Assembly: GCF_004323845.1 (NCBI RefSeq) | Contig: NZ_QPGR01000011.1 | Location: 1 to 53,422, forward strand | Source: Campylobacter novaezeelandiae | GTDB taxonomy: Bacteria > Campylobacterota > Campylobacteria > Campylobacterales > Campylobacteraceae | Reading direction: 5' to 3' | Length of the DNA stretch: 53,422 nucleotides | Made by a program: the position numbers and the translations under genes | In this document: piece after piece, positions 10,545 to 47,681 of the stretch | Layout: every line of letters starts with the position of its first letter | How positions within the stretch are numbered: the first letter of the stretch is position 1 | The notes under the pieces: generated by a model | Told to the model about the DNA's origin: nothing | What the model saw: only the letters and a program-made list of their open reading frames with translations | Database searches by the model: none

Positions 10545-11606
10545 ATGAATATTAAAAGATACTTTTCCTTGCCAATTTCATTTTTTGGGGCTGTTATGGG
10601 GCTTAGTGCTATTTCCTTAGCTTGGTTTTTAGCATATAAAATCATTTATTTTGCACATCTTAATGATACTCTTGTTAAGATAAGTCAAATTTTTTATACT
10701 TTTTTTGCACTTTTGGCTTTATTGGTTTTTGTTTTCTTATTTTTTATTTTTATTTTTAAAAGCATAATGAATTTTGAAAATATAAAAAGTGAATTTCACA
10801 ACCCAACCACCAAAGTTTTTTTTGGAACTTTTTGTATCTCTTGTTTGCTTTTACCTATGATATTATCAATACTTTTACAAACTTTTCATTATGAAAGCAA
10901 TATAATCAAAACTTTTGGTTTAATCTTATGGACATTTGGGGTGATACTAATGTTTGGTTTTAGCTTGTATATTATAAATACTTGGCTTTATCATAAACAC
11001 GAACTTATCCATATCACTCCAGCTTGGATTATCCCTGTAGTTGGTTTATTGGACATTCCTTTAGCTTTGCCTTATATTTTTAATACAAATTTATATATTT
11101 TTAAATATTTAACAATGCTTTGTATTGGAACGGGTTTTCTTTTTGCTTTGATCTTAATCCCCTTGATCTTAGCTAGAATTATTTTTTTTCAAAAACTCCC
11201 CGATAAACTTGCTCCAACACTTTTGATTTTAATAGCTCCTTTTAGCGTTGGATTTAGCACCTATACAACTATTTTCAATATTGATGATTTTGCAATAATA
11301 TTATTTTTAATAGGAGGATTTTTATTTTTATCGCTTTTGCCTCAAATTTTTAAAGCTTATAAGTGTTGCCCTTTTAAAATTACTTGGTGGGCTATAAGTT
11401 TTCCACTGGCAACTTTAAATATTAGCTACTTAAAGATTATTGCTAATTCTTTAAAAAATATAAATACAATTAATTTTAATAGTCTTTATGGAATTTTTAT
11501 TATCCTAGCTTTTGGATTTTTAATTTTTACAACTTTAGTTTTTTTATGGCTTATTTTAAGAACAGTCAAAGGAATTTTTTCAAAAGAAATTGAAAATTTA
11601 AGTTAA
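10545..11606 (+). CDS. TDT / SLAC1-type anion channel or transporter
   Basis: 353-residue integral membrane protein with about ten hydrophobic helices. It opens LPISFFGAVMGLSAISLAW and has the NTWLYHKHELIHITPAW and PVVGLLDIPLALP stretches typical of the tellurite-resistance/dicarboxylate transporter (TDT, TehA/SLAC1) family. Members pass anions or export tellurite-related compounds; the substrate is unknown. It begins 10 bases after dcd with a GGGGT site and ends 57 bases before pseB. In NCTC 11168 I recall dcd directly followed by pseB, so this may be a strain-specific insertion. Confidence 0.85.
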   Translation: MNIKRYFSLPISFFGAVMGLSAISLAWFLAYKIIYFAHLNDTLVKISQIFYTFFALLALLVFVFLFFIFIFKSIMNFENIKSEFHNPTTKVFFGTFCISCLLLPMILSILLQTFHYESNIIKTFGLILWTFGVILMFGFSLYIINTWLYHKHELIHITPAWIIPVVGLLDIPLALPYIFNTNLYIFKYLTMLCIGTGFLFALILIPLILARIIFFQKLPDKLAPTLLILIAPFSVGFSTYTTIFNIDDFAIILFLIGGFLFLSLLPQIFKAYKCCPFKITWWAISFPLATLNISYLKIIANSLKNINTINFNSLYGIFIILAFGFLIFTTLVFLWLILRTVKGIFSKEIENLS

Positions 11607-12667
<1,061 letters not shown>

Positions 12668-12668
<1 letters not shown>

Positions 12669-13798
12669 TGCTAACTTATTCTCATCAAAACATTGATCAA
12701 AGTGATATAGAAGTTATTTTAAAAGCTTTAAAAGATGAAATTTTAACAGGGGGTAAAAAAGTAGAAGAATTTGAAAAAAGCCTTTGTGAATATGTAGGAG
12801 TAAAATATGCTTGTGTATTAAATTCAGCTACTTCAGCCCTTCATCTTGCCTATAAAATTTTAAACCTTAAAGACAAAATCGTTCTTAGCACCCCTTTAAC
12901 TTTCGCAGCTACTTCAAATACAGCTTTAATGGCAGGAGCAAAGGTTGAATTTATAGATATTAAAAGTGATGGAAATATTGATGAGAATAAATTAGAAGCT
13001 AGATTAAAAAAAGATAGTAAAAATATAGGAGCTATTTGTGTGGTTGATTTTGGGGGCAATAGCGTTGAGATGGATGAAATTTTATATCTTTCTAAAAAAT
13101 ATAATATTCCCTTAATCGATGATGCAAGCCATGCCCTAGGGGCAAATTATAAAGATAAAAAAGTAGGATCAATGGCGGATTTAAATGTATTTTCCTTTCA
13201 TCCTGTAAAACCTATAACTACTTTTGAGGGTGGAGCTTTACTTAGCAATAATGAAGATTTTATTAAAAAAGCAAAACTTTTAAGATCTCATGGTATAGAG
13301 AAAAAAAGACTTTGGGATAGTGATATGTATGAACTTGGATATAATTATCGCTTAAGCGATGTTGCTTGTGCTTTAGGGATTAATCAACTTAAAAAACTTG
13401 ATATCAATTTAGAAAAAAGAGAGAGAATTGCTAGGTTTTATGATGAAGAATTTAAAAACAATCCTTATTTTTCTACTATAAAAATTAAAGATTATAAAAA
13501 AAGTTCAAGGCATTTATATCCTATTTTACTTTTTCCAGAATTTCATTGTAAAAAAGAAGAAATTTTTAAAGCTTTAATTGATAAAAAAATAGGAGTTCAA
13601 GTACACTATAAACCCACTTATGAATTTAGTTTTTATAAAAATTTAATGGGAAATATAAGATTAGAAAATGCTGATCATTTTTATAGAGCTGAACTTAGTA
13701 TTCCTTGTCATCAAGAAATGAGTTTAGAAGATGCAAAATTTGTAAAAGAAAACTTATTTGAAATTTTAGAACAAGTAAAAAAGGCTTATTGTGAATAA
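12668..13798 (+). CDS. pseC: UDP-4-amino-4,6-dideoxy-AltNAc aminotransferase
   Basis: PLP-dependent transfer of an amino group from glutamate to C4 of the PseB product, second step of the pseudaminic acid pathway. The 376-residue DegT/DnrJ/EryC1 protein has the PLP lysine in FSFHPVKPITT (Lys181), with DDASHALG at 151-158 holding the cofactor-binding Asp and SHGIEKKR downstream. One-base overlap with pseB and eight-base overlap with the next gene indicate coupled translation. Its 4-amino product is the natural acceptor for the acyl- or formyl-transfer enzymes of the following island. Confidence 0.96.
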
Positions 13799-15147
13799 AT
13801 TTGACTTTAGACATAAAAATTTTATACAAAATGGTATCTTAATGTATAATCTGGCTAAAAAGCTTTTTCCAATTTGTAGAAGTATCACTGGAAAAGGTTT
13901 TAGAACAAGTTTAAAAATTCTAAACTATGAACTTACAAAAAACTTTATACAGCCAAATAAATTACAACAACTAGCTGGGGGGGGGGATTTGAGATTTATT
14001 CCATTAAAAGTGGAACAAAAGTATATGATTGGGTCATTCCACCTGAATGGCATATCAAAGATGCTTTCATAATAGATCCAAACGGTAAAAAAATTTGTGA
14101 TTTTAAAAAAAATAATCTACATGTTTTAAACTATAGCATAGCAGTTGATAAAAAACTAGATCTTGAAGAATTGCAAAATCATTTATACTCTTTAGAAGAT
14201 ATTCCTGATGCTATTCCTTATGTTACGAGTTATTATAAAAAAAGATGGGGATTTTGCATTACTCATAATGAAAGAAAAGAGTTAAAAAAAGGAACATATA
14301 GAGTTTTTATTGATTCAAAGCATGATGAAAATGGGGTTTTAAATTATGCAGATTTTATTATCCCTAGTACGAAAAAAATAAAAGATGAAATTTTAATCTC
14401 TACCTATCTTTGTCATCCTTCTATGGCAAATAACGAGCTAAGTGGGCCTGTGGTGGCTCTATTTTTAATCAAATGGCTTTTAAATCTTAAAGAAAGAAAA
14501 TATAATTACCGCTTTGTTATCGTGCCTGAAACTATAGGAAGTATAACTTATATCAATAAAAATTTAAAAGCTTTACAAAAAAATGTAAAGGCTGGATTTG
14601 TCCTTTCGTGCGTAGGAGATGATCTTTCTTATTCACTTATTCATACCCCAAATGCAAATACTCTTTCAGATAAAGTTGCATTACATACCTTAAAAAATAA
14701 AACTAATTTTAAAGAATTTAGCTTTTTAAAGAGAGGTTCTGATGAAAGACAATACAATTCTCCTTTAGTAAATTTAGGGATTGTTGGAATTTGTCGCACA
14801 AGATATGGGGATTATAAATTTTATCATATTCAAAAGATGATCTTGATTTTATAAGCCCTAAAGGTTTATTGGGAGGACTTAAGGCTATGCAAGAAATCAT
14901 TTTAAATTTGGAAAATAATGCTATTTATAAAAATACTACTTTTTGCGAACCAAATCTTGGAAAAAGAGGTCTTTATCACACTTTAAGTTCTATCAATGAT
15001 ATCCCTCTTGCCTGTAATTTTCTAGCTTTTCTTGATGGAAAAAAAGATATTTTAGATATAGCAGAAATCTTAAATTTACAAGGCTATGAACTTAAAGACT
15101 TAGTGCAAAAACTTTTAGAATTTAAGCTTTTAGAATGTGTAAACTAA
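13791..15147 (+). pseudogene. DUF4910 aminopeptidase-like glycan modification gene (Cj1295-like), two frameshifts
   Basis: Homologue of the phase-variable gene after pseC in C. jejuni (Cj1295), reported to be needed for a di-O-methylglyceric acid modification of the flagellin glycan. It starts with GTG inside the pseC end and reads LFPICRSITGKGFR, a family signature. A G10 tract at 13977-13986 puts the frame into a stop at 14070. The rest is open in another frame and resumes as EIYSIKSGTKVYDW, ISTYLCHPSMANNELSGP (zinc-peptidase-like His/Glu) and FLKRGSDERQYNSP. A second shift, apparently a one-base deletion near 14828-14832 (YHIQK instead of YHxSKDDLDF), moves the last 100 residues to the third frame. 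Eight or eleven G alone would therefore not restore the full protein. The C-terminal part has a winged-helix look (ILDIAEILNLQGYEL). Confidence 0.85.
13977..13986 (+). repeat. G10 contingency tract in the DUF4910 gene
   Basis: Ten G; 8 or 11 would join the N-terminal part to the SIKSGTKVYDW part. OFF as sequenced. Confidence 0.92.
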
Positions 15148-15869
15148 GTCCTTGATTTTGCTTGATATCTTTAGATATCACTTCATAAGCTTTTTCAAGA
15201 TTGATGATCTTGATACAAATTTCATCAAAAAAAACTACTTTCATAACACTTTTTTCTAAAAAAAGCTCTTCTAAGGGATAAATATAAGTTAAAACATTAT
15301 TGGCTCTTACAAACATATCATATGTTTTAAGTTCTTTGTAACCTTTTTCATCAATATAAAAAGATGTAAAACTTTTATTATATCTATAACTAACTTTAAA
15401 ACATTGTTCTACATAATGAACAAAAGTAAAAGAATCCTGCAAGGGCAAATCAACAATAATCATCTTAGCTTTATTTTTATACATAAAATCAAAAGGTGAA
15501 TTTTTATCAAAAGCTCCCTTATTATCAAGCTTAATTAAATCTTTTTGAAAATTATTTGCAACCATAAAAGAATAAATAGGATGTTTTGTGCGTTTAAATT
15601 CTGCTCTTTTTAAAGCTATATTTGCCAAAGCCCCTGTTTGTGATTTTGAATTTAAAATATCATAGCTTAAGCCTTTACAAAAGTCCCAATTAAAGCTTTG
15701 TATTGCTAATCCCCCCCCCCCTAGTCTGTTTTAAAAAAATATCAAGAAAAATATTTAAATTTTCTCTTGCATTACCCTTTAGCTTATAAAGCAAACGTGT
15801 TAAATTTCCTGTAAATAATATATAATCCTTTTCTCTTATATCAAATTTCTTAAAAAAATCTTCTATCAT
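15122..15869 (-). CDS. AAC(3)-like aminoglycoside N-acetyltransferase family, out of frame at G11
   Basis: Acyltransferase of the aminoglycoside 3-N-acetyltransferase fold, probably acting on the flagellar sugar rather than on drugs (homologous to Cj1296/Cj1297). The ATG at 15867-15869 gives MIEDFFKKFDIREKDYILF. After codon 51 a G11 tract (15711-15721) throws the frame into an early stop. With 10 G it continues GLAIQSFNWDFCKG, KSQTGALANIALKRAEFKRT, HPIYSF and FVHYVEQ, all family-typical. A TATAAT at 15911-15916 (minus) serves as -10. The 3' end overlaps the DUF4910 gene tail by 26 bases on the opposite strand. I recall the 11168 homologues on the same strand as pseB, so this segment may be inverted here. 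Confidence 0.82.
15711..15721 (-). repeat. G11 contingency tract in the AAC(3)-like gene
   Basis: Eleven G; 10 (or 7, 13) would be in frame. OFF as sequenced; losing one G turns it on. Confidence 0.93.
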
Positions 15870-16109
15870 TAATACAACCTTAAAAATTAAGTTTATTTTA
15901 AATAAAGAATATTATATAATAGTTTTGACATATTGATAAATTAAACTCATACCATAAGATTTATTTCATTCTTTAAAGAAATTTATCATCGCCATAAAAC
16001 TTAACTTATTTTTACTCACGCTAGCAATAAAACCTTATATTAATTTTTAAAATTATGTATTTTTTTAGATATAATTAAACAAAAAATATAATGTTAAAAA
16101 GGAGAAAAT
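15870..16109. promoter_or_regulatory. Divergent promoter region
   Basis: 240 bases without a gene. Plus strand: TATAAT at 16070-16075, 35 bases before the TTG start at 16110, with GGAG at 16101-16104. Minus strand: TATAAT at 15911-15916, about 42 bases before the AAC(3)-like ATG. No RNA gene seen. Confidence 0.6.
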
Positions 16110-17174
16110 TTGAAAGCTTTTTTACATATAGGAACAACTAATACAGGAAATCAAGAAAAGCAAGGTTTTTTAGCAAAAAATTTTAACAAACTTTTAAACC
16201 AAGGATTTTTGTATCCAAAAAGTCTAAGAGTGGCCAATAGACATTGGGCTTTAGTAGATATGGTTTTAGAATTAATTGAAGATAAAAATTTAAGCCTTAC
16301 CTCCCCCCAGCAAGTATTAAAAGCTTTAAAAAATCCTCGTCTTTTACAAACTATAGAAGATTTTAAAAAAGAAAAAGAACTTCACAAAGATAAAACTTTT
16401 ATTTTTTCTGTTGAAGGGTGTGTTTGGGAATTTTCTTCAAAAAGACATATAGAAATTTTACATGCGATTTTAAAGGCTTTAGGATTTAGTGAAATCAAAC
16501 TTATGGTTTATTTTAGAGATACTTTAGATTATTTAAATTCTCATTGCTCTCAAGATTTGAAAAACAATTTGGGCTATTATTCAGGTGATTTTAAGCCACA
16601 AGATCATCCTAGAAAATATATTTTTGATTATAAATGGATTTGTGAAAATTATACTGAAGTTTTTGGAGAAAATAGTTTAATTGTAAGATTATTAAGAGAA
16701 GATTACGTTGGAGGAACTTTGCTTAAGGATTTTACTTATCATTTAGGCATTAAATGGGACGAAACTTTTGATTTAGAACAAAAAAGAAACGAAAGTTTTA
16801 ATCTTTTGGGTATGGAAATTCAAAAAAGATTAAATGAAAAAGACTTAAATGGACAAAATTTTAATTCTCTTTTAAGCATTTCTAGAAAACACTTTGAAGG
16901 TACAAAAGAGCCAAGACTTAAATTTAAAGTTCAAAAAGAACTTGCCAAAGCTTATGTTGATTATTTTGCTAGCTCCAATGAATGGGTAAGAGCTAAATAT
17001 TTTCCTCATAAAAAAAGTTTATTTACCCCTATAAATTGGGATGATTATAAAGAAAATGCCACTTTAAAAGACACTAAAGAAGAAGATTGGGATAAAATTG
17101 TAGACTTTTTTGCAGAAGTAATTGTCTCAAAAAATATTATTATTCAGAACTTGAAAAATTGCAATAAAAATTAA
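16110..17174 (+). CDS. P-loop sulfotransferase-like protein with degenerate nucleotide site
   Basis: 354 residues, starting at a TTG with GGAG six bases upstream. The N-terminus MKAFLHIGTTNTGNQEKQGF resembles the 5'-phosphosulfate loop of sulfotransferase-like P-loop proteins (HIGTTKTGTTS type), but the usual Lys is Asn and the following Ser/Thr are Asn-Gln, so PAPS or nucleotide binding is doubtful. Downstream VYFRDTLDYLNSHCSQDL matches the 3'-phosphate region (R..D....S..Q). The C-terminal half is helical with no known domain. It might be a carbohydrate sulfotransferase that has lost or changed activity, or a relative with another role. Its stop overlaps the convergent ACP gene by four bases. 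Confidence 0.65.
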   Translation: MKAFLHIGTTNTGNQEKQGFLAKNFNKLLNQGFLYPKSLRVANRHWALVDMVLELIEDKNLSLTSPQQVLKALKNPRLLQTIEDFKKEKELHKDKTFIFSVEGCVWEFSSKRHIEILHAILKALGFSEIKLMVYFRDTLDYLNSHCSQDLKNNLGYYSGDFKPQDHPRKYIFDYKWICENYTEVFGENSLIVRLLREDYVGGTLLKDFTYHLGIKWDETFDLEQKRNESFNLLGMEIQKRLNEKDLNGQNFNSLLSISRKHFEGTKEPRLKFKVQKELAKAYVDYFASSNEWVRAKYFPHKKSLFTPINWDDYKENATLKDTKEEDWDKIVDFFAEVIVSKNIIIQNLKNCNKN

Positions 17175-17190
17175 TTTTTCATTGCAATTT
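17156..17190. terminator. Bidirectional hairpin at convergent gene ends
   Basis: AAATTGCAATAAAAATT (17156-17172) pairs with AATTTTTCATTGCAATTT (17173-17190) with one unpaired base in the right arm. It spans the overlapping stops of the P-loop gene and the ACP gene. Confidence 0.6.
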
Positions 17191-17398
17191 CAAGCATATT
17201 TTTGATTGTTTGAAAATTTTCAAAATTTTCAGGCTTAATAAAACTTGCATCAAGTGGTTTTCCATAGTATTTTTCAATTTCTGCTACTAAAGCCATAATA
17301 TCTATGCTATCTATAAGATCATCACTAATTAAATTCTCTGTATTTTCATCAATGTCTGTTCTTTCTATATTAAGAAAAAATTGCTTAATTGTTTGCAT
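17171..17398 (-). CDS. Acyl carrier protein
   Basis: 75-residue acidic carrier protein. The phosphopantetheine site is LIDSIDIM, with Ser31 in the DSID form of DSL. It is not the fatty-acid AcpP of the housekeeping fab cluster but one of the extra ACPs found in Campylobacter flagellar glycosylation loci (compare Cj1299, Cj1304, Cj1308). It has a strong AAGGAG site. The adenylating enzyme, the KAS III-like protein and GNAT-like genes nearby suggest it holds an activated acyl or amino-acyl group destined for the glycan. Confidence 0.88.
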   Translation of the reverse strand: MQTIKQFFLNIERTDIDENTENLISDDLIDSIDIMALVAEIEKYYGKPLDASFIKPENFENFQTIKNMLEIAMKN

Positions 17399-17424
17399 TT
17401 TTACTCCTTAAAATTAATTTTGTA

Positions 17425-18432
17425 TTATACTGAATTTATATAAATATTAGGTCTATCTTGATCACTATCTCCTTTAAAAATAGTATAGTTTTTATACTCG
17501 CTTTTAAAAGCAAAATAAATATCAATATTTTCTTTCAAAAAAGGTTCAAAATATACAGGTATAATACTTTCTTCATTTTTCAATGAAAAACCCATTTGTA
17601 TAATTTTATTTGTATCCCAAACATAACAAAGAAAACTTACAAATTCGAGATTTTGCTTTTGTAAAAGCTTCTGAAATTCATCATATAAATTCTTTTGAAA
17701 TTTCCCTAAAAAATCAACAATAAGCATACATTTTGATTTATTTTGTTTGATAATTCTTGTAAAAAAAATACTTAAAATTTTATCATCTTTAAAAACTCCA
17801 TAAGCTTTATACTTATAAATTGGATGTTTAAAATATCTATAAATAAAATAATCTTTACTTTTTTTAGGATAGAAATTAGATTTTAACTCATAATTTTTAA
17901 ATTCATTACAACTTAATAATTTTAATTTTAAAGAACTTTTTCGATGAGATATTGTTTTAATATCTTTAAAATAAGCAATTTTAAAATATTTTCTCTTATC
18001 ATTTTTTATATAAAAATGATAGAGTTTTCCTATTTTATGATAATTAAATAAGCGAACAAATTTAAGAGAAAATTCACTCATACCCGATGAAGCTGTATTT
18101 TTTAAACTAAAAAATTCTTGTAAGCTTTTATATAATCTTAAACCAAGAGAAGGAAATTCTTTTTTAGCTGACCATAAAGAAGTCCAAATATTAATATCTT
18201 TAGCATTTATATCATATTGACTTTGAAGTATAAAACCTAATACGGCATCGAATTCTTTATTTTGTTTATTGAAAGCAACCAAAAAATTATATCTTTGATT
18301 TTTCTTATCAAAATGTTGAAAATCAAGCACTTCTTTTGACTTAACAAAAACATGATCTTCTTTTCAATATTTTTTTATAAATTCTTGTAAAAGTTTATAT
18401 TCATCTTTTTTACAAAATCTTATTTCGTGCAT
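17425..18432 (-). pseudogene. GNAT-like acyltransferase with in-frame TGA at codon 23
   Basis: The true start appears to be the ATG at 18430-18432, preceded by AGGGG, giving MHEIRFCKKDEYKLLQEFIKKY. Codon 23 is TGA (18364-18366), where the family commonly has Trp (TGG) before KEDHVFVKSKEVLDFQH. The frame stays open afterwards to 17425, about 312 further residues. An internal ATG at 18330 gives a 301-residue open frame but would lack the N-terminal strand and helix of the fold. The acyltransferase assignment rests on the N-terminal W-x-x-H-x-F-type region and the island context. It is followed 26 bases later by the ACP. Probably inactive unless the TGA is an error or is read through. Confidence 0.65.
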
Positions 18433-18440
18433 TTTTACCC

Positions 18441-19364
18441 CTAATTAGCTTGTCCAAATTGAAATTCATTACAATCATATCTTGATAAAGTATAGGGATT
18501 ATTCTTTAAATCTTCTAAAGTTATATCTTTTTTATAATAATCAAGACTAACAAAAGCAAAATTACAACTTAATTTTTCTAAAATTTCTTTAGAATCAATA
18601 TTAAATTCTCCATAAGGATAGCAAAAGGTTTTTAAAGGATTTAAAAACCTATCAAGAGTTTTAAAAGACTTATTTACTTCTTCAAATTGCTCTTCTTTGT
18701 TTAATTTTAAAAAATTTAAATGATTGAAGCTATGTGCACCAATGATCATTTTATTTGCTTGCATTTTTTCTAAATGTTTTTCATTTAAATATAAGGCATA
18801 AAAATTTCATCATCAGAGCAAAAATGTTTTACTACTTCATCTAGAATTTGCTCTCTGAATTCATATTTAATATATAAGTTAAATAAAGCCTTAAATTTTT
18901 TAACTTCTAAATCATCATTGTGTTCTTTATAATAAGTATCAAATATATTATTGAAAGAATTATCTAAAAGAGTATTATCGATAAGATCTAAAACAAATTG
19001 ATTTAATGCCCCCCCCGTATCGTCCTAAAAGATAATGAATTCTATGAACATCTAAAGCTTTTTTCTGATGCAAAATTCTTGTTGGAATAAAAAATAAACC
19101 AAATAAATTTCTTTTTAAAAGTTCAAAAAAGACAAAATTATAATGATCTATAAGCCCATCATCAAAAGTCAATAAAATTTTATCCTTAAGTTCTTTGAAA
19201 TAATTCATATCCTTTTTTAAATTGATAAAATCTTCATATTTAACAAAACCAAAATTTTTTTCAAAAAAATCAAGTTGTTTACAAAAATTTTTAAAAGATA
19301 AATATCTTAAAAAAGGTAAATCTTTAGTTTTTTCTCTTACATAATGATACATTATAATTTTCAT
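18441..19364 (-). pseudogene. Polysaccharide deacetylase family, two frameshifts
   Basis: NodB-like carbohydrate esterase gene. The ATG at 19364 with GAGGAT gives MKIIMYHYVREK, then KILLTFDDGLIDHY with the metal-binding Asp-Asp. A G8 tract at 19009-19016 follows GRY and sends the frame to a stop at 18975; seven (or ten) G would give GRYGGALNQFVLDLID. A second apparent one-base deletion near 18796-18805 then moves the 3' part to another frame, which reads NEKHLEKMQANKMIIGAHSF, with the catalytic His-x-x-x-His-like motif (HSFNH), and ends DCNEFQFGQAN. Two lesions mean tract change alone cannot rescue it. It ends nine bases before the GNAT-like start. Confidence 0.8.
19009..19016 (-). repeat. 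G8 contingency tract in the deacetylase gene
   Basis: Eight G; 7 or 10 would keep the catalytic-domain frame past the tract. OFF as sequenced. Confidence 0.85.
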
Positions 19365-19397
19365 TTACTATCCTCAACTTTATTTGAAAAAATAATA

Positions 19398-20135
19398 TTA
19401 TAAATTCTTATTAATTTTTAAAATTATATCATTCTCTAAATGAAGCTTTAAACTATTTTTATTATATTCATAAAATAAAATATTTAAATTTTGATTAAAA
19501 AGTTTGATTTTTGCTTTAGGAATATTACTTAATATACCACAATCCATAGCTCTTAAAAAACAATCGATTTTTGATTTTTCCCAAGAAAGCTCCAAAAAAC
19601 CTCCATTGGGCAAATCTTTCTTTAAGTAAATCCCCCCCCCCGTTAAACATTCATCTTGTTTTTTATAATTTTTATTTTTTAAATTTTCTAAGGCCTTTTT
19701 AAAAACATTAATAGCAAGATTGTGCTGAACTCTTAATAAATTAAGAGCTGTGATTTTTTTATCAAGTTTAATTTCTTCTTGTATTAAAATATCTCCTGTA
19801 TCTATATTTTTATCTACTTTATGCCAAGTAATACCTGTTTTTAACTCTTCTTTATAAATCGCCCAAACATGAGCATTAACTCCTCTATAATAAGGAAGTA
19901 AAGAATTGTGATAATTAATAATAGTATTATTTTCTACACACAATGGCTTAAAAATATAAAAATTATTCGCACTAATAATTAAAGATTTTTTTAAAGAATT
20001 AAAAAAACTATCTAAAAAACTCGTTTCTTTAAAAATTACCAATCTAACCTCTTGATTAAAGAAAAGCTCAGCTATTTTTTGGCATTCTTTTGCTACTTTT
20101 CCCTCACCTATAATAAAAATATTTTCATATTTCAT
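19398..20135 (-). CDS. Formyltransferase family protein, in frame at G10
   Basis: 245-residue protein of the methionyl-tRNA formyltransferase / sugar N-formyltransferase fold. The catalytic set is visible: Asn74-x-His76-x-Ser-Leu-Leu-Pro (74-81), then YRG, and Asp112 in VDKNIDTGD. N10-formyl-THF-dependent sugar formyltransferases share this core, so N-formylation of an amino sugar made by PseC is a reasonable guess; a true fmt would be longer with an OB-type C-terminal domain. A G10 tract (19632-19641) encodes GGG in CLTGGGIYLKK, and the frame stays open into SWEKSKIDCFLRAMDCG, so the gene is ON. Other tract lengths would cut off the last 80 residues. Confidence 0.85.
   Translation of the reverse strand: MKYENIFIIGEGKVAKECQKIAELFFNQEVRLVIFKETSFLDSFFNSLKKSLIISANNFYIFKPLCVENNTIINYHNSLLPYYRGVNAHVWAIYKEELKTGITWHKVDKNIDTGDILIQEEIKLDKKITALNLLRVQHNLAINVFKKALENLKNKNYKKQDECLTGGGIYLKKDLPNGGFLELSWEKSKIDCFLRAMDCGILSNIPKAKIKLFNQNLNILFYEYNKNSLKLHLENDIILKINKNL
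19632..19641 (-). repeat. G10 contingency tract in the formyltransferase gene
   Basis: Ten G, in frame (ACG GGG GGG GGG ATT). ON as sequenced. Confidence 0.93.
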
Positions 20136-20159
20136 TAAAAATTCCTATAATACATAAGC

Positions 20160-20824
20160 TTAATATCATTAAATTAAAATCCAACTCTTTGATAAAATTT
20201 AATCATTATTGCAATCTACAAAAAGTCTAAAAATATTAGAGTTTAAATTATTTAAAAAATAATGATTAAGTAGAGCAAAAGAAACATTTTTGTGGACTAA
20301 ATTTGATTTTATAGCAATAAATTCTAAAAAAGCTGATTTAAAAAATGCGTATATAATAAAGCATCTTTAATCTTATGATTTTCTTTATAAACTAAGATAT
20401 TATCAATGTATTTATTTAATTCTTTATTATAGATAAAAAGATAATTAGCATCAAAAAATTCACTAAAAAATTTAAAAAGTTCTTCTTCATCACCCAATTA
20501 GGGAGGGGTTAAGTTTTTTGCCTTTAAACTCATTTGGGAAAAATTTTGATGAATTTTAAATGATTTGCTCTAAAAAGTATTGGTATTTTGAAAAAGAAAA
20601 CTCATTTTTTCTTAAAATTCCAATAAAACTTAGTTTTAAAGAAAAATCTTTAATCTCATTGACAAAAAATAAAGCCTAGAGTTTTCATAGAAAAAATAAT
20701 TATCTCTTTCTTATATAAATGTTAAATTTTTTGTATTTTTCTTGTAATTTATCTAGACTCTCATAATAATTACTCAGTAAAAAACCTTTATATAAGCCTT
20801 TTTAAATTCTTTAAATAAACTCAT
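20160..20824 (-). pseudogene. Decayed GNAT-like gene
   Basis: The 675 bases between the formyltransferase and the adenylating enzyme hold a minus-strand coding relic. An ATG at 20822-20824 inside the end of the adenylating gene gives MSLFKEFKKAY. The homology-like text then hops frames: GFLLSNYYESLDKLQEKYKKF, YENSRLYFLS, IKDFSLKLSFIGILRK, FFPNEFKGKKLNPS, GDEEELFKFFSEFF, KSAFLEFIAIKSNLVHKN, and finally FVDCNN followed in a shifted frame by IKFYQRVGF. The last element is the acceptor end of a GNAT acetyltransferase fold (N-x-x-x-I-x-F-Y-x-x-x-G-F). At least four frameshifts or stops are needed, so this is not phase variation. Confidence 0.7.
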
Positions 20825-22313
20825 TTAAAACTATTCTATCAATCTTGCCATTTTGATTGAGTTTAAAACTATCTAATCTTATAAAACGTTTAGGTATCAT
20901 ATAAGCATTTAATTTATCTTTTAAAAAAGTTTTTAAATCAAGTTCTTTTTTACTTTCATAAAAACAAATAATCTCATCTTTAAAAATACAAGCAGTATTT
21001 TTAATCTCTAAATGAGAATTAATTACACTTTCTATCTCTCCTAATTCTATTCTATGTCCCATATATTTTATTTGATTATCTTTTCTTCCAAAACACAAAA
21101 GTTCGCCAAACTCATTATAAGCTACAATATCCCCTGTTTTATAAAGTAAATCTAAATAATTATTATGCAAAGGATTTTGTATAAAAGCCTTTTTTGTTTT
21201 TTCGCTATCATTATAATAACCTAATGATAAACAAGTTCCTCTTATATAGAGTTCTCCTTTGATACCTACTTCTTTGGGACTAATAAAATTCATATTTTCA
21301 TCAAAGACTAAAAGCTCGGTATTTTTACAAGCTTTACCAATGGGTAAAATATCTTCGTCTTTAAATTCTCTCTCAACCTTATGAAAAGAACAAACATCAG
21401 TAATTTCAGTAGGCCCATAAAGATTAAAAAATTCTGTATTTGGTAAAGTTTTTCTCCAAAAATTAAGTTGTTTATTTGGCATAATTTCACCACAAAAAAG
21501 AACTTTTTTAAGATCAAGATTAAAATCTTTTAAAGCATTGGTATTGGCAAAATAAATAAGCACCGAAGGTACCCAAAAAATCATATTTATTTTTTTCTCT
21601 TCTAAATAAGATAAAATTTTATTTGGAAAAGCAAAAAGATGATTAGGCAATAAATGAAGTGTTGCCCCTACTTTAACGCTTGAAAATATATCTAAAATAC
21701 TATTATCAAAATAAAACGGAGCCTGATTAGCCAGAATCTCATGTTCGCTTAAGTTAAAAGTTTCACACACCCAAAAAGTATAATCAATCACACTTTTATG
21801 AGAAATACAAACACCTTTTGGCACTCCTGTACTCCCACTTGTAAAAAAAACATACAATAAATTTGTATCTATATGCCTTTCCTTAACTTCTTCTAATAAA
21901 GCTTCATCTATATCAAAATTTACAAAATCTTCTGTATAAAGTGTTGGTAAATTAAAATCAAATTTTAAATTTTTTGAAGTGATTAATAATTTTGGTTTTA
22001 AAATATTTATTACTTTTTCTATGCGTTCTTTTGGAGTTTTTTCATCTAAAAGAGTATAAAAATTCCCACTTAAACTCACACCAAAAAAACTTATAAGACA
22101 ATCAATACTTTTAGGCAAAAGAATTAAAATAGAATTTTGTGTATAAGAATCATTTAAATCTTTAGCAATTTTACTTGCAAGTTTTTTGCTTAAAATGTTG
22201 AATTCTTTATAATTTATACTTTTAAAATTTGAACCAAAAGCATCTACAAAAGCTAATTTTTCAGGAAATTTTAAAACACTTTTTTCTAAAAAATCATAAA
22301 TACTTCTAACCAT
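20811..22313 (-). CDS. Amino acid or carboxylate adenylating enzyme (AMP-binding)
   Basis: 500-residue ANL-superfamily enzyme that activates a carboxylic or amino acid with ATP and, by analogy with DltA and NRPS adenylation domains, loads it on a carrier protein. Core motifs: TSGSTGVPKG (158-167), NLYGPTEIT, YKTGD, GRKDNQIKYMGHRIELGEIE and the C-terminal NGKID with Lys490. It resembles Cj1307, annotated as amino acid activating. The likely carrier is the ACP at 17171. Substrate cannot be read by eye. The start at 22313 shares a 56-base divergent promoter gap with the plus-strand DUF2920 gene. Confidence 0.9.
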   Translation of the reverse strand: MVRSIYDFLEKSVLKFPEKLAFVDAFGSNFKSINYKEFNILSKKLASKIAKDLNDSYTQNSILILLPKSIDCLISFFGVSLSGNFYTLLDEKTPKERIEKVINILKPKLLITSKNLKFDFNLPTLYTEDFVNFDIDEALLEEVKERHIDTNLLYVFFTSGSTGVPKGVCISHKSVIDYTFWVCETFNLSEHEILANQAPFYFDNSILDIFSSVKVGATLHLLPNHLFAFPNKILSYLEEKKINMIFWVPSVLIYFANTNALKDFNLDLKKVLFCGEIMPNKQLNFWRKTLPNTEFFNLYGPTEITDVCSFHKVEREFKDEDILPIGKACKNTELLVFDENMNFISPKEVGIKGELYIRGTCLSLGYYNDSEKTKKAFIQNPLHNNYLDLLYKTGDIVAYNEFGELLCFGRKDNQIKYMGHRIELGEIESVINSHLEIKNTACIFKDEIICFYESKKELDLKTFLKDKLNAYMIPKRFIRLDSFKLNQNGKIDRIVLNEFI

Positions 22314-22369
22314 ATAAACACCTTTAAAAAATTTTTATTATAATACTAAAAAAACTAAAAAGATTTACC
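22314..22369. promoter_or_regulatory. Overlapping divergent -10 boxes
   Basis: In this 56-base gap a plus-strand TATAAT (22339-22344) lies 25 bases before the DUF2920 ATG, and a minus-strand TATAAT (22337-22342) overlaps it, facing the adenylating gene. Use of one promoter should hinder the other. Confidence 0.6.
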
Positions 22370-23578
22370 ATGCTAATAAATAAATTTTATGAAATAAATT
22401 CTTGTGATGATGTTGAACTTAATATAAAAAGAGAAAGTAAGCTTGAGTATAGAATTACTTTTGATGATAGTAAAGATTTAAAAGCTATAGTTTTTATTAT
22501 AGGTGGCTTAGGCTCTAATACCAACATTTCTTTTTTAGATTTTGATAGAGAATATTTAGCTAAAAATTTTGATGTAGTAGTAGTTAATGTTTTTTATCAT
22601 TGTTTTTGTATGAGAAAAAGTTTAGATGAAAAATATAGTGCGATTAAAGTTTTTTTGCCTCAAGATATTCAAAGATTAAAACAGAATTTGGAGAATTTTG
22701 GTTTAAATATTAAAAATATTGATGCACAAAATGCTCCTTTATACGCTAATGCTTTAGTAGAACATATACAAGAACTAAAAAATCAAAACAAACTTGATAA
22801 AAACTATAAAGCCATTTTTACTTCAACCTTTATCCCACCAAATAATGAATATCAAAACTATGGTATTATGGCAGCAATTGATCATATCAATGCTTTAAAA
22901 GATATAGTTAAAAACTATCCTGAATTTAAAAATTTGCCTAAAATTTATGGGGGGGGGTCTTATGGTGGATACTTATCCTTGCTTATAGCTAAGATTGCTC
23001 CTTGGTATGTTGATGGGGTGATTGATAATTCAGGTTCAGCTTTGCCGCCTTTAAAGCGTATTCTCGCAAGGGAGATGAATTTATGTGAATATTATGAAGA
23101 ATTTCCCCATAATATCATAGAATTTTTTCTTAAAAATCATTGGAATAGAGATATTAACTCACCTTTTTATTTTGATGATGAAAACTATATGATTCGTTCA
23201 ATTTTAAATTCAAATCATCTTTTAATCCAGCAAAAATCAAATCCTAATATCATTTATATTTCTTATCATAGTAGTAAAGATAGCGATCCAGCAAGTTATA
23301 AAATAGAACTTCATAAAATCTATAAAAACCTAGGCTTTGATTCTACTTTACATTTAATAGAAAGTGAAGATCAAATTGATGGAAAATTAGTTAAAAGTTT
23401 AGAACATGGTTTAAGAATGACTGATAAGGCTTTATTTAGACAAGAATTACCTATAGTATTAGAAAAATTAAAAAATAGAAATTCTTTTATGAAAGAAAAT
23501 TCTATTTCTTATCCTTGTAAAAATAAAGTTTTTACTTTTAAGGATAAAGAGGATAAATTTGTTTTGGAGATTAAATAA
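22370..23578 (+). CDS. DUF2920 (617-family) alpha/beta hydrolase-like protein, in frame at G9
   Basis: 402-residue member of the '617 family' found in multiple copies in Campylobacter flagellar glycosylation loci (DUF2920). The core looks like an alpha/beta hydrolase: AIVFIIGGLGSN (39-50) as the oxyanion-side strand, then IYGGGSYGGYLSLL (192-205) as the nucleophile elbow with Ser197. A G9 tract (22949-22957) encodes the three Gly directly before that Ser, and the gene is ON. A deacylase or acyltransferase role on the glycan is inference. It is near-identical in blocks to the inverted copy at 24683-25899. Confidence 0.85.
   Translation: MLINKFYEINSCDDVELNIKRESKLEYRITFDDSKDLKAIVFIIGGLGSNTNISFLDFDREYLAKNFDVVVVNVFYHCFCMRKSLDEKYSAIKVFLPQDIQRLKQNLENFGLNIKNIDAQNAPLYANALVEHIQELKNQNKLDKNYKAIFTSTFIPPNNEYQNYGIMAAIDHINALKDIVKNYPEFKNLPKIYGGGSYGGYLSLLIAKIAPWYVDGVIDNSGSALPPLKRILAREMNLCEYYEEFPHNIIEFFLKNHWNRDINSPFYFDDENYMIRSILNSNHLLIQQKSNPNIIYISYHSSKDSDPASYKIELHKIYKNLGFDSTLHLIESEDQIDGKLVKSLEHGLRMTDKALFRQELPIVLEKLKNRNSFMKENSISYPCKNKVFTFKDKEDKFVLEIK
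22949..22957 (+). repeat. G9 contingency tract in the DUF2920 plus-strand copy
   Basis: Nine G, in frame, encoding Gly194-196 of the presumed nucleophile elbow. ON. Confidence 0.93.
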
Positions 23579-23619
23579 GTGGGTTTGGTTAGATTTTTAG
23601 TTTTATTTAAATAAAAAAC

Positions 23620-24633
23620 TTACTCTAAAATCTTTATAAAGCTTTTTAATTCATTAAAATCAAGTTTTAATTTTAAAATATTAAAAACAATTCCTGTTCC
23701 AAAAGAACCTAAGCACAAATCCTTAATCCCCCCCCCCGCTGATTGTTTTTGTAAACAAATAAGATCTAAAACAAGTTTATTGATCAGAGTATCTCCATAT
23801 TCTCTTAGACTATCATTAAAATTATTTTTAAGTTTTAAGGTATGTAAAAGTTTTTCACGAAAAAAGGCATTTGAGCTTTGAAATAAAAAATAATCTATTT
23901 CTTGTTTTTCTTGTTTAAAATAGTTAAAAAATTCTTCAAAAAATAATGGAAATTTTTCCATAACAAATGAAAAAAATAAATTCCCATCTGTTTTGCCAAA
24001 CTCATTAGCATTTTCATTAAATGCCTTTAATGGAGAAGTTTCTTCTAGGACAAATTCTGAAAAAATATTTTGAGAATAAAATGCTTTTTGCTGATCATTT
24101 GTTTTTTCTATCAAAATAGCACTAGCACTATCAGAAGTATTTAAAAAAGTGATTTTATCTTTAGGATTAATTTTTTTGCTTTTTACGCTTGCACAAAGTA
24201 AAATAACTTTTTTAATATTTGGATAATCAAGCAATGAAAAGGCCTGTAAGATCCCTTGTAAAAATCCCCAACAAAATGCATTCATATCAAAACATAAAGT
24301 GCGATTATCTAATTTTAAATTTTTATGAATCAAACTAGAACAAGACGGAGCTAGAAAGTCAGGAGTAAAACTTGCAAAAATTAGTGCATCAATTTCATCT
24401 TTTTTAATCAAATTTTGATTTAGTAATTCTTCTAAAGCCTTGCTTGCTAAATCACTTGCATAGGTATTTTCATCGCTTATAAAGTGATTTAATATACCAC
24501 TGTTTTGTTGTAAAATTTTAAATTTATTTTCACTTAAACCAATATAGCTAAGTTCTTCTTGCTGGGTGCGAAAATTTTTAGGTAAAACTACGCTTATGGC
24601 TTTGATAGAGTGATTGTTAATTGTTAATTTCAT
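23620..24633 (-). CDS. FabH-like (KAS III) protein lacking catalytic His and Asn, in frame at G10
   Basis: 337-residue thiolase-fold protein of the beta-ketoacyl-ACP synthase III type (compare Cj1303, fabH2). Cys121 in DMNAFCWGFLQG is the acyl-accepting Cys. The usual P-H-Q-A-N is here FQSSN (251-255), putting Gln252 in place of His, and the usual YGNTS is YGDTL (279-283), putting Asp281 in place of Asn. Decarboxylative condensation is therefore unlikely; transfer of an acyl group from ACP to a hydroxyl or amino group is more plausible. A G10 tract (23728-23737) encodes GGG in QSAGGGIKDLCLG, and the GSFGTG C-terminus follows in frame: ON. It lies between two inverted DUF2920 copies. Confidence 0.85.
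   Translation of the reverse strand: MKLTINNHSIKAISVVLPKNFRTQQEELSYIGLSENKFKILQQNSGILNHFISDENTYASDLASKALEELLNQNLIKKDEIDALIFASFTPDFLAPSCSSLIHKNLKLDNRTLCFDMNAFCWGFLQGILQAFSLLDYPNIKKVILLCASVKSKKINPKDKITFLNTSDSASAILIEKTNDQQKAFYSQNIFSEFVLEETSPLKAFNENANEFGKTDGNLFFSFVMEKFPLFFEEFFNYFKQEKQEIDYFLFQSSNAFFREKLLHTLKLKNNFNDSLREYGDTLINKLVLDLICLQKQSAGGGIKDLCLGSFGTGIVFNILKLKLDFNELKSFIKILE
23728..23737 (-). repeat. G10 contingency tract in the FabH-like gene
   Basis: Ten G, in frame (GCG GGG GGG GGG ATT). ON; other lengths remove the C-terminal active-site strand. Confidence 0.93.
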
Positions 24634-24682
24634 TTATAACCTTTAATTTTATTATTACAAAAATATCATTTAATCTAAAAAT

Positions 24683-25899
24683 CTAATTTTTAATCTCCAA
24701 AACAAATTTATCCTCTTTATCCTTAAAAGTAAATACTTTATTTTTACAAGGATAAGAAATAGAATTTTCTTTCATAAAAGAATTTCTATTTTTTAATTTT
24801 TCTAATACTATAGGTAATTCTTGTCTAAATAAAGCCTTATCAGTCATTCTTAAACCATGTTCTAAACTTTTAACTAATTTTCCATCAATTTGATCTTCAC
24901 TTTCTATTAAATGTAAAGTAGAATCAAAGCCTAGGTTTTTATAGATTTTATGAAGTTCTATTTTATCTTTAGCAGGAGCACCAAAATCTTTTGCGCTATG
25001 GTAGTGAATATAGATTATATTAGAATTTAATTCTTTTTGAATTTGAATGTGTCTTTGATTTAAAATAGATCTAATTATATAATTATCATCATCTAGATAA
25101 AAAGGAGAATTTATATTACGTGTCCAATATTTTTTTACATAACAATTTAAATTTACATTTTCTCCACTAAATACAAATTCTGCAATTTCAGTCTCTCTTC
25201 CTAAAATATGTGGAATAAAAGGCATAGTGATCGCAGAATTATCAACCACCCCATCAACATACCAAGGAGCAATCTTAGCTATAAGCAAAGATAAGTATCC
25301 ACCATAAGACCCCCCCCATAAATTTTAGGCAAATTTTTAAATTCAGGATAGTTTTTAACTATATCTTTTAAAGCATTGATATGATCAATTGCTGCCATAA
25401 TACCATAGTTTTGATAGTCATTATTTGGTGGGATAAAATCACAATTAAAATAAGCTTTAATATCTTTTTCAATGATTTTTTCTTCTTTTAATTTTTTAAT
25501 ATGTTCTTCTATAGTAGGATAAAGAAGATTATAATAATTTTTCTCATCTGCTATAATATGTGATAAACCTATATTAGATAAAAGTTTTTGTATTTGATGT
25601 AAATCTTGTTCATTAGGCACAATTTTTGGATTGTATTTTTCATTTATACTTTTTCTTGCACAAAAACAATGATAAAAAACATTAACCACTACTACATCAA
25701 AATTTTTAGCTAAATATTCTCTATCAAAATCTAAAAAAGATATATTAGCATTAGCTCCAAAACCACCTATAATAAAAACTATAGCTTTTAAATCTTTACT
25801 ATCATCAAAAGTAATTCTATACTCAAGCTTACTTTCTCTTTTTATATTAAGTTCAACATCATCACAAGAATTTATTTCATAAAATTTATTTATTAGCAC
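24683..25899 (-). CDS. DUF2920 (617-family) protein, out of frame at G8
   Basis: Second DUF2920 paralogue. It starts with GTG at 25897-25899 inside the last codons of ctsG (14-base overlap) and reads MLINKFYEINSCDDVELN, as in the plus-strand copy. A G8 tract (25310-25317) follows KIY and causes an early stop near 25279; nine G would restore GGGSYGGY and the open 3' part (25288-24683). The gene alternates near-identical blocks (N-terminus, the tract region, the last 95 residues) with divergent blocks, unlike simple drift. Apart from the tract I saw no other lesion, so it is probably a switchable gene, OFF here. Confidence 0.85.
25310..25317 (-). repeat. G8 contingency tract in the DUF2920 minus-strand copy
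   Basis: Eight G; nine needed. OFF as sequenced, while the paralogue with nine G is ON. Confidence 0.93.
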
Positions 25900-47672: not shown

Positions 47673-47681
47673 CCCCCCCCC
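47673..47681 (-). repeat. G9 tract between kpsC and kpsS
   Basis: Nine G begin two bases after the kpsC stop and end 13 bases before the kpsS ATG. The tract is outside both reading frames, so length changes would alter spacing or the ribosome site, not the protein. With nine G the two genes happen to be in the same frame, separated only by the kpsC stop. Confidence 0.9.

Follow-up and report, generated by a model that had tools for sequence, protein, structure and literature searches.

What do the genes behind pseB and pseC contribute to the flagella of Campylobacter novaezeelandiae? In the window, i.e. the whole stretch of 53,422 nucleotides that was analysed, a 12-kb island of eleven genes (A-G and I-L) and one remnant (H) follows two genes that we take, by their families, to be pseB and pseC, Table 1. 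The first-pass annotation described this island as a route that loads an acid on an acyl carrier protein (ACP) and moves it to a nonulosonic acid, with hydrolases to edit the product. Our analysis favours, with moderate confidence, a stand-alone aminoacyl-carrier pathway for decorating flagellin at its nonulosonic acid, in which the formyltransferase (Ft) provides an N-formyl cap and the transfer is most likely made by the KAS III-like protein K.

Table 1. Genes of the island and the evidence used to assign them.
Feature	Position	Strand	Basis and state
pseB and pseC homologues, with which the locus starts	11616..13798	+	ORFs; in relatives, orthologues likewise placed beside DUF4910/AE
A, DUF2172/DUF4910 protein (Cj1295-like)	13779..15147	+	Pfam; three frame pieces
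B, AAC(3)-like acyltransferase	15122..15911	-	PF02522; two frame pieces; off at C11 tract 15711-15721
C, sulfotransferase-fold protein, altered PAPS loop, open	16098..17174	+	Alignment; AlphaFold2 and Foldseek
D, acyl carrier protein (ACP)	17171..17407	-	PF00550, 22.6 bits, cut-off 20.8
E, GNAT-like, family unclear	17425..18441	-	In-frame stop near 18364, close to the start of E
F, polysaccharide-deacetylase-like, three frame pieces	18441..19364	-	PF01522 on one piece; C8 tract 19009-19016
G, formyltransferase (Ft), open	19398..20144	-	PF00551; C10 tract 19632-19641
H, GNAT gene remnant	20144..20811	-	tblastn with a relative's GNAT; Pfam of relatives
I, amino acid adenylating enzyme (AE), open	20811..22334	-	PF00501; TIGR01733; code DNLFLCLDVK
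J, DUF2920 protein, open	22370..23578	+	PF11144, 541 bits; G9 tract 22949-22957
K, KAS III-like protein, open	23620..24633	-	C10 tract 23728-23737; Cys kept, His to Gln, Asn to Asp
L, second DUF2920 gene	24683..25899	-	Two frame pieces; off at C8 tract 25310-25317

The genes listed earlier for this island are all present, but four genes are damaged beyond tract switches (A, E, F and H, the last absent from that list) and two, B and L, are switched off at a tract. A is broken twice, at a G10 tract (13977-13986) and, outside any tract, near 14818-14854, and the deacetylase F likewise shifts frame twice, once at a tract and once elsewhere. Because of this damage A, E, F and H are probably outside the working route of this isolate. 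AE, ACP, Ft, K, J and C are open. The two DUF2920 genes, J and L, share 83% DNA identity overall.

That most genes have their own poly-G switch is confirmed: there are nine G/C tracts of at least eight bases in the window, and the seven within the island lie in seven of its eleven genes. The pattern GGGGGGGG has 22 (overlapping) matches in the window, compared with a mean of 0.09 in shuffles. Counted over the homologous genes, tracts are found in 11 of 26 Ft and 12 of 13 K genes, but in none of 64 AE and only two of 66 ACP genes. This placement suggests that the switches would sit on the cap (Ft) and transfer (K) steps, while loading by AE and ACP is largely tract-free.

The gene order AE-(GNAT)-(Ft)-ACP is seen across 63 AE sites, the window included. 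Ft follows AE at 21 of these sites, and ACP comes next at 18 of the 21; in the remaining three the stretch ends within 1.5 kb. For the 19 Ft sites with at least 40% identity, the ACP start is at most 42 bases away in 16. Less in keeping with this order, the broken F and E genes separate ACP from Ft in the window, and at 16 of the 63 AE sites no ACP is found within 5.2 kb downstream. In relatives an intact GNAT gene lies between AE and Ft or ACP; H is its remnant, interrupted by stops and with 47-64% identity to a relative's GNAT in the better pieces. Nor is the gene set restricted to this genome. AE is present in 34 of the 60 genomes searched, its own included, and one further genome, G027 (L168), has AE, Ft, ACP, deacetylase and E all together. 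AE also occurs on plasmids, in seven records that are each below 60% identity.

In one genome (G133) AE and Ft form a single frame of 743 residues with both AMP-binding and Formyl_trans_N matches, and no in-frame ATG, GTG or TTG is found in the printed junction. The gene next to it is an ACP, assigned from its 57% identity with that of the window as it has no Pfam match. As assembled, the fusion is present in one out of 12 AE-bearing genomes of this genus, and in two sister genomes (L196, L197) the AE and Ft matches overlap. Conservation of the gene order beyond a single genus, together with this fusion, supports a route of loading on ACP and transfer. The outline of the first-pass annotation stands, with two changes: the acid is probably an amino acid, which would itself carry the formyl group in place of the sugar.

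The nature of the cargo was examined from the AE. It scores 319.7 bits against the amino acid adenylation model TIGR01733, above the cut-off of 317.4, and 283 bits against the NCBIfam DltA model, below the cut-off of 559.85. The code DNLFLCLDVK, which to our knowledge is unlike any described amino acid code, is found in 36 of 52 AE rows, or 30 of 46 once duplicate contigs are removed. Both residues expected to bind an alpha-amino acid are well kept, the first Asp in 43 and the last Lys in all of the 46 rows, and the rows without the Asp (L054, L166, L170) have neither Ft nor GNAT ahead of ACP. Judged by these residues, an amino acid is the probable cargo. Alternatively, AE could load a hydroxy acid or another carboxylic acid, e.g. 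glyceric acid on the way to the di-O-methylglyceryl group tied to Cj1295, with Ft serving something else. DUF4910, the Cj1295-like family, is directly ahead of AE in several relatives, and PMC3068675 reports that Cj1295 is required for the di-O-methylglyceric acid form of pseudaminic acid. We consider this quite improbable given the kept Asp and Lys and the TIGR01733 score, and a hydroxy acid has no amine that Ft or GNAT could cap.

A sharper question is what Ft formylates. Its residues N74, H76 and D112 are invariant in all 14 rows, and Asn, His and Asp are the catalytic residues of formyltransferases. We rejected a methionyl-tRNA formyltransferase, as the fmt model gives 53.4 bits with a cut-off of 201.5. 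Ft could be PseJ-like and act on a free amino group that belongs to the sugar or to its UDP precursor, with AE and ACP forming a decoration route of their own within the operon. Its best solved relatives are indeed sugar N-formyltransferases, with the GDP-perosamine type closest (72.9 bits); the formylation domain of LgrA scores less (47 bits), and PseJ itself is a weaker match (38 bits). Another formyltransferase-like gene, different from Ft, also lies with E at a putative legionaminic acid locus in another genome (G020, L091). However, position and, in one case, fusion link Ft to AE and ACP. One genome, G080, speaks against the link, as its Ft is away from the AE orthologue, though it adjoins an ACP and a second adenylating enzyme whose frame is broken. 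Close Ft genes (50-63% identity) are found in 13 of the 60 genomes besides its own, and all have AE, which is weak alone because AE is common. A sugar-directed Ft is thus unlikely, though it is the rival to be taken most seriously, and action on the carrier-bound amino acid is more likely. Least probable is that the island is decaying and without a product in this isolate. The four damaged genes and the two that are off would fit decay, but AE, ACP, Ft, K, C and J have open frames, and Campylobacter sp. TTU_617 has AE and ACP of 92% and 95% identity, respectively.

For the transfer step we looked at K, described earlier as a KAS III-like acyltransferase without condensing residues. The description is right for the His and Asn, which are replaced in the window, but the active-site Cys is retained and is invariant in all nine rows aligned. 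As we read the alignment, the Cys-His-Asn triad is complete in four of nine relatives. Because of the lost His and Asn, the activity of K is uncertain. K is found with at least 44% identity in ten other genomes and adjoins AE or an AE fragment in nine, the exception being G009, where it is about 39 kb from AE. Its score against the FabH model TIGR00747 is 96.3 bits, below 292.1. A fatty acid role for ACP and K was set aside, since another FabH-like gene is found on contig C23 and K has lost two triad residues. K (at least 40% identity) and E never occur together at any relative's mapped AE locus. We also set aside the idea that they are mutually exclusive transferases, as E is present at only five mapped AE loci, too few for such a conclusion.

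Gene C was absent from the earlier list. It has a sulfotransferase-like fold according to an AlphaFold2 model (pLDDT 68; best Foldseek match 3rnl, E-value 7.2e-5), with a changed PAPS loop. In the window and in 12 AE-linked rows the loop is TTNTGNQ or TTNSGNQ in place of KTGTT, while of six homologues at 37-39% identity five have KTGTT and one KTATT. Searched by profile against solved structures, C gave a single chance match (E-value 1.8) and E none, and the Pfam scan of both families gave nothing convincing. E itself matches no Pfam family. One of the nine members of its family matches GNAT (E-value 0.0036), so the earlier GNAT-like label is weakly supported for E, while H is indeed the remnant of a GNAT gene. 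A single-sequence structure prediction of E (pLDDT 37.8) was set aside.

According to the favoured aminoacyl-carrier model, AE would activate one alpha-amino acid with ATP and load it on ACP. Ft would then formylate the free amine, giving an N-formyl-aminoacyl-ACP; in relatives the GNAT in the same slot would acetylate the ACP-bound amino acid, either in place of formylation or in addition to it. The capped aminoacyl group would finally be moved to the sugar by an ACP-dependent acyltransferase, most likely K through its kept Cys. The position beside pseB-pseC points to a nonulosonic acid on flagellin as the acceptor. We tentatively extend this model, at somewhat less than an even chance, to Campylobacter and related genera. 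Here, a dissociated NRPS-like line would place amino acids with an interchangeable N-formyl or N-acetyl cap onto pseudaminic or legionaminic acid; loading would be constant, and phase variation would decide on cap and transferase. With the acetyl-cap gene H inactivated and the formyl-cap gene on, the flagella of this isolate would bear N-formylated amino acids.

We know of no flagellin with such a decoration, and paper searches on formylated nonulosonic acid, PseJ, and adenylation with O-antigen brought up no description of the AE-Ft-ACP module. The AE-cap-ACP module is a candidate route for amino acids onto flagellar sugars and predicts a formyl version of the capped amino acid, detectable by mass spectrometry. 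For Cj1307- and Cj1308-like genes it offers a function that can be tested, and it suggests a scheme of constant loading with a switched chemical cap and transfer. Some Campylobacter genes annotated as methionyl-tRNA formyltransferase may be glycan enzymes.

The island resembles the Cj1295-Cj1310 flagellin glycosylation locus of C. jejuni. Both lie after pseB-pseC and carry poly-G/C tracts, and the island has DUF4910, AE and ACP after pseB-pseC, as expected of this type. In C. jejuni 414 (L050), which has a locus of the same type, DUF4910, AE, ACP, the C protein and DUF2920 are similarly ordered, but unlike in the island there is neither Ft nor GNAT between AE and ACP and no deacetylase-E pair.

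The formylation, adenylation and carrier activities predicted here are also those of the start module of LgrA, the linear gramicidin synthetase, which formylates a carrier-bound valine and whose domains are among the solved relatives of both Ft and AE. LgrA has them on one chain in the order formylation-adenylation-carrier, whereas the island has separate genes in the order adenylation-formylation-carrier, with the first two on one chain only in G133. No condensation domain was found among the proteins scanned, and the cargo would reach a sugar and not a peptide. DltA-DltC, which brings D-alanine to teichoic acid, is likewise a stand-alone amino acid adenylating enzyme with a carrier that decorates a glycan, but it is not known to have an N-cap step and the island AE falls short of the DltA model. 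PseJ and other sugar N-formyltransferases share the fold family and the N, H and D residues with Ft, which, unlike them, is linked here to an adenylating enzyme and ACP. In the butirosin side-chain pathway an ACP-carried amino acid has its amine protected by a gamma-glutamyl group before transfer to an amino sugar, whereas the protection proposed here is a formyl or acetyl cap.

The flagellin of C. jejuni 81-176 carries pseudaminic acid substituted with N-acetylglutamine, Pse5Am7Ac8GlnNAc, as described in PMC3068675. In the literature searched, including passages of PMC3068675, no genes were found assigned to this form. It is a capped amino acid on the flagellin sugar, and an AE-GNAT-ACP module would yield such an N-acetyl amino acid, while in the island studied here the intact cap gene is Ft.

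The genome comprises 1.57 Mb in 59 contigs, and the window is one entire contig with a GC content of 27%. The island consists of eleven genes and one remnant, followed by a pseudopilin-like gene and a TsaD-like gene. We scanned ten island pieces and the DUF2920 gene J with Pfam and NCBIfam, leaving out the small pieces A1, A3 and B1 and the second DUF2920 gene, L. The matches were a DUF2172/DUF4910 protein (A), an AAC(3)-like acyltransferase (B), a carrier protein (ACP), deacetylase pieces (F), a formyltransferase (Ft), an amino acid adenylating enzyme (AE), a KAS III-like protein (K) and DUF2920. The gene content that the first-pass annotation described after pseB-pseC is thus real, but in this isolate the set is partly dead. 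The sulfotransferase-fold gene C, ACP, Ft, AE, J and K are open, while B and L are off at a tract. A and F are damaged beyond the tract, with two frame breaks apiece, and their second pair of pieces is a single frame in Campylobacter sp. TTU_617 and in genome G027. The GNAT-like gene E has an in-frame stop close to its start, and only pieces with stops are left of the GNAT gene H. Some lesions in A, F, E and H could be sequencing errors.

Location of features in the window and in loci of relatives
Feature	Position	Remark
C tract, 10 bases	window 2124-2133	outside the island
SLAC1-family channel gene (PF03595)	window 10545-11606	between a dCTP deaminase-like gene and pseB
pseB and pseC	window 11616-13798	upstream flank of the island
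C, sulfotransferase fold	window 16098-17174	
J, DUF2920	window 22370-23578	
L, DUF2920	window 24683-25899	
C tract, 9 bases	window 47673-47681	outside the island
Ft of TTU_617	L035:2003-2710	
Ft to ACP row of G080	L182:7993-12429	
Formyltransferase of C. coli LMG 9860	L036:2310-3021	

In whole-genome searches of 60 genomes (E 1e-10, own genome counted), 34 have AE and 27 have Ft. A close Ft (50-63% identity) is found in 13 genomes besides the own one, in G008 in fragments, and all 13 have AE. A wider sample took in 298 genomes from the order, counting the own one; Ft was found in 9 (E 1e-35) and AE in 17 (E 1e-110). Among the eight other Ft genomes, G003, G021, G257 and G133 have AE, and G032 has it in pieces. 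In G230, GNAT-Ft-ACP-K stands at the start of a contig, and AE was not seen. In G167, a more distant adenylating enzyme, DUF4910, an ACP (20.4 bits, slightly below the PF00550 cut-off), an unknown protein, an AAC(3)-like gene and Ft lie in a row. In G080, Ft is not next to the AE orthologue; the row there reads Ft, a hydrolase-like protein, a different adenylating enzyme with a broken frame, a PLP decarboxylase (PF00278, PF02784) and ACP, and its cargo is possibly a decarboxylated amino acid.

The window proteins were mapped on loci of relatives. Because these loci were chosen by the presence of AE or Ft, the linkage counts do not come from a random sample; the searches of the 60 and 298 genomes cover whole genomes. 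At 63 AE sites with AE identity of at least 40%, the window among them, we looked up to 5.2 kb downstream for the nearest ACP on that strand. Between the two we recognised no gene at 19 sites, Ft at 9, GNAT-Ft at 8, GNAT at 8, deacetylase-E at 2 and Ft-deacetylase-E at 1 (the window). At 16 of the 63 sites no ACP was found in this range; these had nothing recognised (9), GNAT (2), GNAT-Ft (2), Ft (1), deacetylase-E (1) or K (1). Several of them end at a contig or stretch limit, and elsewhere the ACP is farther away or upstream. Ft follows AE ahead of ACP at 21 of the 63 sites, and locus L142 has a 29% formyltransferase match 4.4 kb past ACP. Seen from Ft (19 sites, identity at least 40%), ACP starts within 42 bases at 16. 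The remaining three are L048, where the contig ends, L177, where the Ft match is partial, and TTU_617, with 391 bases. AE is within 735 bases at 17 of the 19, divergent in one (L047); of the two left, L153 is at a contig start, and L045, which reads Ft-ACP-AAC(3)-AE, has 1046 bases. The island is one case of a locus type spread through the genus and beyond. The gene combination, which the first-pass annotation did not recognise as described, is not peculiar to the window as regards AE-Ft-ACP; Ft-deacetylase-E between AE and ACP occurs only there among the 63 sites. The TTU_617 Ft, which has stops within the matched stretch, is 56% identical to that of the window, against 92-95% for AE, ACP and C, and Ft has therefore probably been exchanged.

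In G133, which belongs to a different genus in the family, a single open frame of 743 residues holds both AE and Ft, with AMP-binding and Formyl_trans_N matches, and no in-frame ATG, GTG or TTG lies at the printed junction. The gene that follows shares 57% identity with the ACP of the window; a Pfam scan of it gave no match. The AE and Ft matches overlap in two sister genomes (L196, L197). AE is found in 12 of 16 genomes of this genus, the long AE-Ft frame only in G133.

AE exceeds the NCBIfam threshold for an amino acid adenylation domain. Among solved structures its best relatives are LgrA (two domains of about 172 and 174 bits, which the E-value sums), the peptide synthetase 8xjz (276.5 bits), GrsA (214.5 bits) and DltA (198.6 bits). 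At the ten positions that we take as the specificity code, the window reads DNLFLCLDVK. This code is found in 36 of 52 rows, or in 30 of the 46 that are left once duplicate contigs are removed; all of these 46 keep the Lys, and 43 keep the Asp. The code matches none that we know for an amino acid. No cap gene lies ahead of ACP in three AE paralogues that lack the Asp, which fits the amine-capping view, in few cases. The paralogues of L166 (G030, SARSAVLGTK) and L170 (G022, SARSAVLGVK) lack the alpha-amino acid Asp, have ACP 31 bases on and probably carry a non-amino acid.

K, described earlier as lacking the condensing residues, has an invariant Cys in all nine aligned rows; His and Asn, by our reading of the alignment, are kept in four of the nine. 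K of at least 44% occurs in 10 of the 60 genomes besides the own one, next to AE or an AE fragment in nine; in G009 the two lie about 39 kb apart. On this adjacency, K is the best transferase candidate, with the AAC(3)-like protein, C and DUF2920 as alternatives. The AE-linked C proteins have lost the PAPS loop that distant relatives keep; they are perhaps a sulfotransferase fold put to other use, maybe with ACP. E lies away from AE in G020, G030 and G014, beside genes that we label as nonulosonic acid genes. In G020, G010 and G003 it accompanies a gene that we label deacetylase-like; the G020 piece has no Pfam match. The deacetylase-E pair, predicted to be dead in this isolate, probably alters an acyl group on a sugar, separately from the AE route.

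Nine G/C tracts of at least 8 bases lie in the window, seven of them in the island (GGGGGGGG: 22 overlapping matches against 0.09 in shuffles). Among relatives we counted tracts of at least 8 G or C inside or within 30 bases of each match, window and fragments included, with gene lengths that differ. Tracts are borne by AE in 0/64, ACP 2/66, pseB 0/20, pseC 1/21, C 1/18, GNAT 1/23, E 0/6, AAC(3) 6/37, Ft 11/26, K 12/13, deacetylase 5/6, DUF4910 21/35 and DUF2920 32/57 matches. By these counts loading stays on, and switches are frequent at the formyl cap, K, deacetylase, DUF4910 and DUF2920 but not at the GNAT cap. J and L form a mosaic of blocks with 97-100% DNA identity alternating with blocks of 50-73%, a pattern expected from gene conversion. 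This genome has its two best flagellin matches, and two Maf-type ones, on another contig, C18 (7.9 kb), and neither PF00669 nor PF01973 matched on the window contig. In C. jejuni 11168, flaA and flaB lie inside the corresponding locus.

In the available literature, one paper names Cj1307, in a PCR primer remark, and two mention Cj1308: PMC4820699, and PMC6338021, whose expression table gives it as a putative acyl carrier protein. In the accessible text of PMC13130089, which covers 16,130 C. jejuni genomes, cj1295, maf7, cj1305 and cj1306 are linked with genes for pseudaminic acid, and Cj1307 and Cj1308 go unmentioned. Excerpts of PMC4875605 report formyltransferases and ACPs in enterobacterial flagellin islands, assigned to sugar modification and to fatty acids. 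The clade-specific methionyl-tRNA formyltransferase of C. coli clade 2, mentioned in part of PMC12102941, could be the glycan-linked Ft (compare C. coli LMG 9860). Among the matches listed, with subscription papers mostly outside, none described an adenylating enzyme-formyltransferase-carrier route for a glycan. What is new is that, in nonulosonic acid loci, an amino acid adenylating enzyme and a carrier are tightly linked to a formyltransferase, once by fusion.

With an amino acid on a carrier beside amine-acylating enzymes, the simplest reading would be a cap placed on the carrier-bound amino acid. Ft is closer to sugar formyltransferases than to the LgrA domain, which counts against amino acid capping. 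A GNAT cap would also account for Pse5Am7Ac8GlnNAc, which C. jejuni 81-176 carries according to the part of PMC3068675 available. The chemistry proposed for AE, Ft and ACP is the same as in the start module of LgrA, here on separate proteins.
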